Source: a virus. From it: a stretch of 64,000 bases of DNA. The stretch covers positions 62,001 to 126,000 of IMG/VR virus record IMGVR_UViG_3300023179_000009; one strand, 5' to 3'. The position numbers and the translations under genes are program-made. The notes below the pieces were generated by a model, which searched no databases, was not told the origin of the DNA, and saw only the letters and a program-made list of their open reading frames with translations. Shown here one piece after another: positions 60,826 through 61,417 of this stretch (positions are counted from its first letter, which is position 1; every line of letters starts with the position of its first letter).

Positions 60826-61417
60826 GGGGTCGTAAAGGTATCGATTGGATAACGAGAGACTCAATGGCAAGTCGAGGTTGGTCAATGGCCTCGTTAAAAA
60901 TTGACCAAAGCCTTAACTGGCAAAAATAGTTACGCAATGGCTGCTTGATAAAAAGAGCAACCACGGACTGCGAATGCGAGCGGGTAGCATTCAAAAGTTC
61001 GTTGTCAAATCCCGCTGGACTAGTGCGGTCAACTTGCGTCTAGTCGAGAAAATAGGTTGAAAAGTCCGTCAGGAATCCTGTTCGTTGGAGTCTCGGCGGT
61101 CTGATAAAAAACGAAACAAACTTGTAGAGGTTGTTTTTCAAATTATCGCAAGACAGGGGTTCAGGTCGAGCCGTCAATAAATGAAAGTTTATTGATTATG
61201 ATTGGATGAATTCGGTGAAACCTTAACGAGTAAAGTCGAAGGCAATACCGAGCCAAGCCCAAGATACATCTTGGGAAGGTGTAGAGACTACTAGAGGAAT
61301 AAAGTTTCCTTAATAACTAGCATGAGCGTCCAACGCCTAAAACCGCAAGGTTATGGTGAACATATAGTCCATTAACTAAGAAATTAGTTGGGGAAATATC
61401 GACTCCCCTCGACTCCA
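60826..61417 (+). ncRNA. ssrA: tmRNA interrupted by a group I intron
   Basis: The 5' acceptor strand ggggtcg (60826) pairs with cgactcc (61410-61416) with G3-U wobble, the alanine identity pair. The D-loop-like start is followed by an open tag reading frame ending ...KNSYAMAA with stops TGA TAA at 60946-60951; the likely resume codon is GCC at 60910 (tag ALTGKNSYAMAA). Pseudoknot-type stems fill the middle. The T arm aggggTTC...ACTcccct is split by the intron, and exons total about 354 nt. CCA is not encoded intact (ACTA). It rescues stalled ribosomes; SmpB would come from the host or from elsewhere in this genome. Confidence 0.92.
61163..61401 (+). other. Group I intron in the T-loop of tmRNA
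   Basis: About 239 nt, no ORF. Ends are uncertain by 1-3 nt; a cut giving ggggTTCAACTcccc restores the T-loop and leaves a terminal intron G. Core pieces match the dnaE intron nearly base for base: ggatgaattcgg, taccgagccaagc, gaaggtgtagagactact, gagcgtcca and atatagtcca. Its 5' end ggttc can pair with gagcc as P1. Confidence 0.85.

Follow-up and report, generated by a model that had tools for sequence, protein, structure and literature searches.

Introduction

Group I introns are known in the T-loop of bacterial tmRNA genes (Nawrocki, Petrov and Williams 2025, PMC11915505), as the first-pass annotation of the locus described here had correctly stated. The consulted part of that paper reports 883 intron forms with boundaries drawn by the usual rules, except for 15 forms with a C at position -1; these rules imply a terminal G throughout. 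Insertion at subsite 2 is given there only for Anaerolineae and one member of the Myxococcota. Huge phages carry tmRNA genes of their own, which were found with ARAGORN (Al-Shayeb 2020, PMC7162821). A group I intron of the Coxiella burnetii 23S rRNA that lacks the terminal G (omega G) is self-splicing according to the title of the report (Raghavan 2007, J Bacteriol 189:6572, cited in PMC5423948 and PMC11270868).

Here we describe a phage tmRNA gene whose T-loop is interrupted by a group I intron. The window, i.e. the whole stretch of DNA that was analysed (64,000 nucleotides), belongs to a virus contig of 458,813 bases and also contains phage-type helicase, UvsX-like and DNA polymerase genes.

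Results

A phage tmRNA gene with an interrupted T-loop

When the window was searched with Rfam cmscan, the tmRNA family (RF00023) matched positions 60834-61168 with 82.7 bits (cut-off 47, E 1.4e-30) and the group I intron family (Intron_gpI, RF00028) matched positions 61151-61390 with 65.5 bits (cut-off 50, E 2.3e-14), the two matches overlapping. The covariance models thus bore out the first-pass annotation, which had proposed that a group I intron sits in the T-loop of a phage tmRNA: both families scored above their cut-offs, on a virus contig and in the company of phage-type genes. ARAGORN reported neither a tmRNA nor an intron part in the window, and the gene thus escapes the standard annotation tool.

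A viral scan at subsite 2 yielded two intron subfamilies. Introns at the same subsite were collected from L014, L024, L033 and L044 (the window's own subfamily) and from L027, L029, L030, L032, L036, L037, L038 and L040 (the second subfamily). As L037 is identical to L027, the comparisons refer to 12 distinct intron-bearing genes including that of the window; all but one of the 11 distinct relatives came from IMG/VR. The parts of the gene are as follows.

60789-60816, plus strand: promoter-like site TTTACT-16-TATAAT, 10 nt upstream of the tmRNA 5' end (consensus scan, 10 of 12 matches; alone no proof of function)
60826-61160, plus strand: tmRNA 5' exon with acceptor strand, D-like region, tag, pseudoknot region, T-stem 5' strand and T-loop base 1 (RF00023; boundary by the P1 U-G pair and intron-less relatives)
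60919-60948, plus strand: tag reading frame GKNSYAMAA-stop, resume codon GGC, stop UGA (direct reading)
61155-61159, plus strand: T-stem 5' strand AGGGG, partner CCCCU at 61405-61409 (kept in all 12 intron-bearing genes; two pairs changed on both sides)
61399-61417, plus strand: tmRNA 3' exon UCGACU-CCCCU-CGACUCC-A, i.e. T-loop remainder, T-stem, acceptor and discriminator (base-paired over the intron to 60826-60832 and 61155-61159)
61420-61449, plus strand: intrinsic terminator, a 13-pair hairpin with a T run (scan)

The acceptor stem (GGGGUCG at 60826-60832, CGACUCC at 61410-61416) is of the alanine type and contains the G3-U pair that had been noticed at first sight and that is kept in 12 of 12 intron-bearing genes. 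The tag frame, likewise read correctly before as ending in YAMAA, has the codons GGC AAA AAU AGU UAC GCA AUG GCU GCU UGA and closes with small hydrophobic residues before an in-frame stop; a tag of the same ending is present in the intron-less relatives L015-L019 and L021-L023 as well as in L014. CCA is absent from the encoded 3' exon. The T arm had been called clear, and its stem AGGGG/CCCCU is indeed there, split by the insert; a 5-pair stem with a UUCRANY loop (AGGGG UUCGACU CCCCU) exists only with the intron taken out.

In the 12 distinct genes, the pairs of the acceptor and T-stem, whose two strands lie on either side of the intron, were formed in 100% of 144 cells, versus 84.7% in shuffles, and 23 cells were changed on both sides, versus a shuffled mean of 6.4, which was also clearly better than the slid controls. 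This pairing and the double changes show that the two exons are maintained as one RNA, and therefore either the intron is removed or the function tolerates it. No SmpB is encoded in the record of the window's phage, and the remaining phage records of its intron subfamily likewise yielded none, so tmRNA function would need the SmpB of the host. Taken together, the tmRNA gene at 60826-61417 is complete, phage-borne and interrupted in its T-loop by a group I intron.

Fold and boundaries of the intron

The features that define the intron are listed here.

61161-61398, plus strand: group I intron, 238 nt, without an open reading frame, last base A61398 (omega A) (RF00028; compensatory change at 25 of 70 pairs across 12 genes)
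61158-61172, plus strand: P1, with G61158-C61172, G61159-C61171 and the wobble U61160-G61170, which marks the 5' splice site (GC, GC and UG invariant in 12 of 12)
61164-61169, plus strand: P10 strand of the internal guide (GGUCGA), pairing with UCGACU of the 3' exon at 61399-61404 (88.9% of cells paired in 12 sequences)
61284-61290, plus strand: P7 5' strand GAGACUA, the guanosine-binding site, pairing with UAGUCC at 61365-61370 (six pairs invariant in 12 of 12)

In P3, P4, P6a and P8 every cell was paired in the 12 genes and compensatory changes were present. P9.0 consists of the pairs A61371-U61397, U61372-A61396 and U61373-A61395 (AUU/AAU). The stretch comprising the T-arm and the intron folds far better than its shuffles (z -4.8, 0 of 200).

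The T-loop sequence around the insert is UUC on the 5' side and UCGACU on the 3' side. P1, P10 and P9.0 agree, and thus place the junctions at 61160/61161 and 61398/61399. Joining U61160 to U61399 gives the T-loop UUCGACU, which is that of most intron-less relatives. The insertion point is after T-loop base 1 (U54), subsite 2 in the numbering of PMC11915505, with a U-G pair at position -1 and the loop restored. An insert of about 239 nt had been estimated before; the insert stands, and its size is corrected to 238 nt. The junction 61162/61402 given in the first-pass annotation is 2-4 bases off and was rejected, as it would leave a 6-nt T-loop and has no P1 U-G pair at the site.

An alternative placement has both splice sites three bases over, the 5' exon ending in UUCA (61163), the intron in G61401, and the spliced T-loop reading UUCAACU. 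Such a loop is found in the intron-less relative L021, and in the four introns ending in A, UUC is followed by a purine (A, A, G, G), so that a legal T-loop would result in each, the omega-G intron of L044 having a U there. With the sites so shifted, however, the base at -1 would be an unpaired purine outside P1, while all 12 genes have the U-G pair at U61160, and splicing would yield a loop unlike the one in the nearest intron-less relatives. Moreover, P9.0 (AUU/AAU) and the six-pair P10 set A61398 as the last base, the position at which the sister intron of L044 has a G. We therefore consider the shifted sites unlikely and retain the junctions at U61160 and U61399.

Relatives, empty sites and mobility of the intron

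Natural empty sites were found in eight relatives (L015-L019 and L021-L023), in which the T-loop is uninterrupted, mostly GGGGTTCGACTCCCC, and the T-arm mostly reads AGGGG-UUCGACU-CCCCU. The intron of L014 is 85% identical to that of the window, versus 67% for the exons; for L044 these values are 79% and 47%. The exons of L014 are 92% identical to those of the intron-less L019, and the two are sisters with 96/99 support, whereas the exons of the window are nearest to the intron-less L021 and L023 (support 81/88). Introns that are more alike than their exons, together with the sister relationship of L014 and L019, show that the intron moves. The tmRNA gene lies close to dnaE in the window, L024, L044, L033, L016 and L018, that is in both intron-bearing and intron-less contigs, and the locus is for this reason probably orthologous with and without the intron.

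A stricter scan of similar design, applied to one genome per species of 84,980 bacterial and archaeal species, gave L044 as the single match; the patterns of the distribution scans are restrictive, so that absence elsewhere does not follow from this result. The dnaE of the L044 contig is 72% identical to that of the phage contigs L016 and L018, and L044 is therefore probably a phage too. These observations bear on the suspicion that the gene might be an assembly artefact, or a chimera of a phage contig and a bacterial tmRNA. The sequence is a metagenome contig, but the same arrangement of gene and intron recurs in several independent metagenomes, in diverged sequence and with dnaE as the common neighbour, and the only match among the bacterial and archaeal species is on a contig with a phage-type dnaE. 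We regard an artefact as extremely improbable.

Several other candidates were discarded. L007-L011, the sole yield of a scan with the 5' half of the P1 region, were unrelated GC-rich coding sequence; the match in L012 was limited to T-arm/acceptor-like sequence and there was no tmRNA; L164 was a chance match, as was the tag pattern in L020; L041-L043, L045 and L046 were without a tmRNA or group I match.

The record of the window's phage contains other group I introns, one of them in dnaE. This second group I intron of the window, at 56266-56489, scores 98 bits and has the canonical terminal G; it interrupts dnaE between ..HSDFS and LLDG, and the gene also has an intein (Hint and LAGLIDADG matches). 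The phage dnaE appears to be split into genes for an N- and a C-half (window 56554-59043; L024 12022-13407; L044 1801-6014); the N-half is near the tmRNA in the window and L024, the C-half in L044, L016, L018 and L033. At 59040-59936 the window encodes a protein with many tandem acidic repeats (DEDMEGMED), which has an acidic-tailed counterpart near dnaE and the tmRNA in L024 (11016-11990). Farther away, at 46306-52228, there is a set unusual for a phage: a PrkA protein kinase gene, followed by a gene with a phage 'sporulation protein' match (48425-49621) and then by a gene at 50624-52228.

Related arrangements were seen in other phage RNA genes. Two Crassvirales genomes, NC_055894 (L175, 1440-2650) and NC_055890 (L176, 1440-2240), seem to contain unannotated, circularly permuted tmRNA genes, with the acceptor 3' piece (ATGCTCC and TAGCTCC, respectively) upstream of the tag-bearing 5' piece (GGGGCAT and GGGGCTA) and an endonuclease gene between them; that of NC_055894 has a T-loop group I intron too. 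In the crAss-like phage cr128_1 (NC_055885; L177, 825-2140) an unannotated tmRNA of standard order has a T-loop group I intron at apparent subsite 3 with a terminal G, and an annotated endonuclease is inserted at the intron 3' end on the opposite strand. In L035 (5907-6534) a group I intron again lies in the T-loop of a phage tmRNA, with boundaries that are not those of subsite 2 (GGGGT/..GGG/TTCAAGT, slashes marking the boundaries). Group I introns with a terminal G were also found at subsite 2 in the apparent T-loop of phage tRNA genes with TGC in the anticodon loop (L025 9094-9392, L031 2225-2523 and L039 2616-2917).

A probable HNH-type endonuclease gene next to the tmRNA

In seven of the 13 intron-bearing contigs an HNH-type gene adjoins the tmRNA, immediately downstream of it, on the same strand in L014, L024 and L044 and convergent in L033, L032, L036 and L040. 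It was not found in the genome of the window's phage, in any of the eight intron-less relatives, or near the tmRNA in the second-subfamily contigs L027, L029, L030, L037 and L038. The protein has 170-185 residues, with a zinc-ribbon-like motif (CxxC...CxxxC) at the N-terminus and a conserved ASLDRxD...NI motif. The five copies scanned matched the PHROG 3322 endonuclease with E values between 1e-18 and 1e-22, and Pfam matches were below significance. In L014 and L024 the ribosome-binding site of the gene lies, as judged by eye, within a hairpin, which is a trait of phage homing endonucleases.

The pattern of presence and absence of this gene would fit homing of the intron in trans by the neighbouring endonuclease. 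The window's phage lacks or has lost the gene, and its intron would now be stranded without an enzyme of its own. Just ahead of the endonuclease gene, L014 (about 895-925) and L024 (about 9290-9330) repeat part of the tmRNA 3' end (CTCGTCTCCACTA and TCGGCTCCA), as if the gene had come with or at the tmRNA end.

The terminal base of the intron

Nearly all group I introns end in G. The last base is A in four of the five introns of the window's own subfamily (window, L014, L024 and L033); L044 has G at the aligned position, and so do all seven distinct second-subfamily introns. In the omega-A introns, P7 with its guanosine-binding site is unchanged. The window intron thus departs from the usual rule; a terminal G is near-universal, yet the RF00028 model does not demand it. 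No junction that restores the loop UUCGACU leaves a terminal G.

Omega A should weaken exon joining in the window intron, and with A in four of five members the second splicing step of the lineage is probably slower, or differently helped, than that of ordinary group I introns. In the maximum-likelihood tree, whose inner branches are poorly resolved, the omega-A introns do not form one clade apart from L044; the tree is compatible with a single origin of omega A and a reversal in L044, or with two origins. With that weak inner support, omega A may have been retained over time in functional genes, or have appeared in them repeatedly.

The omega-A intron could also be a dying element, in which the 5' site is cut and the exons are joined poorly or never, leaving the phage tmRNA effectively dead. 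An impaired second step is what a terminal A leads one to expect, and the endonuclease is missing from the window's phage. Decay is difficult to reconcile, however, with acceptor and T-stems that are perfectly paired, with compensatory changes, among the omega-A genes (window, L024, L033), or with the intact tag, core and promoter-like site; nor is the omega-A set monophyletic against L044, as far as the weak inner support tells. In addition, the Coxiella 23S intron lacking omega G is reported, by the title of the paper, to be self-splicing (Raghavan 2007, cited in PMC5423948). We consider a dead gene improbable.

One might further imagine that in a working intron of this phage lineage G was replaced by A and that the slow or helper-dependent second step acts as a brake, which would confine tmRNA maturation to a certain stage of infection or state of the host. 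This proposal is quite speculative and we hold it to be rather unlikely; if true, it would amount to an intron-timed ribosome-rescue system. Whatever its role, the omega-A lineage and its omega-G sister offer a natural paired test of how far a group I ribozyme needs the terminal G.

Proposed splicing and homing of the intron

The interpretation that we hold to be very probable is that of a phage tmRNA gene complete in itself, from promoter-like site to terminator, with a mobile group I intron after U54 that is spliced from the RNA and homes via DNA. It is based on sequence, structure, covariation across the intron, exact empty sites, incongruence of exons and introns and the association with the endonuclease gene. 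Most likely, the intron would fold after transcription, and an exogenous guanosine would be used for cleavage behind U61160, the P1 partner of G61170. U61160 would then be joined to U61399, held in place by P10 and P9.0, to restore the T-loop UUCGACU. With this loop the tRNA-like domain could form and CCA could be added, and the tmRNA would be alanylated and work with the SmpB of the host. Persistence of the intron would depend on DNA homing, with intron-less tmRNA genes of phages as targets; among its relatives within the subfamily, most are likely to use for this the adjacent HNH-type endonuclease, which would cleave in trans.

In such a pathway splicing would be linked to ribosome rescue during infection, as the first-pass annotation had put forward. 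A simpler reading than this link is that of a mobile intron exploiting a conserved RNA site.

Comparison with known systems

In 'collaborative homing' a group I intron is served by a free-standing homing endonuclease gene nearby, as with the cyanophage psbA intron. The present system is similar in that the endonuclease gene is outside yet adjoining the intron-bearing gene and is missing from intron-less relatives; it is different in that the target is a tmRNA, cleavage is putative and the window's phage is without the endonuclease gene. The terminal base of the Coxiella burnetii 23S rRNA intron is reportedly also A; that is a single rRNA intron, whereas here four diverged phage tmRNA introns share the A and one relative has G.

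Like the phages of PMC7162821, the window's phage has a genome of several hundred kb with its own tmRNA; unlike them, it has an interrupted form missed by ARAGORN, and there is no SmpB in the record. As this gene escaped ARAGORN, interrupted phage tmRNAs may be undercounted. Among open-licence literature, we found no description of a phage tmRNA with an intron, and the consulted part of PMC11915505 makes no mention of a phage form.

With the bacterial subsite-2 forms, as that part of PMC11915505 describes them, the window intron shares the position after T-loop base 1, the U-G pair at -1 and the restored T-loop; the bacterial forms are mostly without an internal homing endonuclease reading frame, and the window intron likewise has none. 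Unlike the forms described there, it is carried by a jumbo phage and ends in A, and the probable endonuclease gene of its relatives lies outside the tmRNA. With two subfamilies and some twelve distinct genes, T-loop tmRNA introns prove to be actively mobile elements in phages and not just a curiosity of bacteria; phages are suggested as their carriers, and the bacterial tmRNA introns could stem from them. Neither T-loop introns in tmRNA nor tmRNAs of phages are new by themselves; what is new is their combination, the neighbouring probable endonuclease gene and a natural omega-A lineage.
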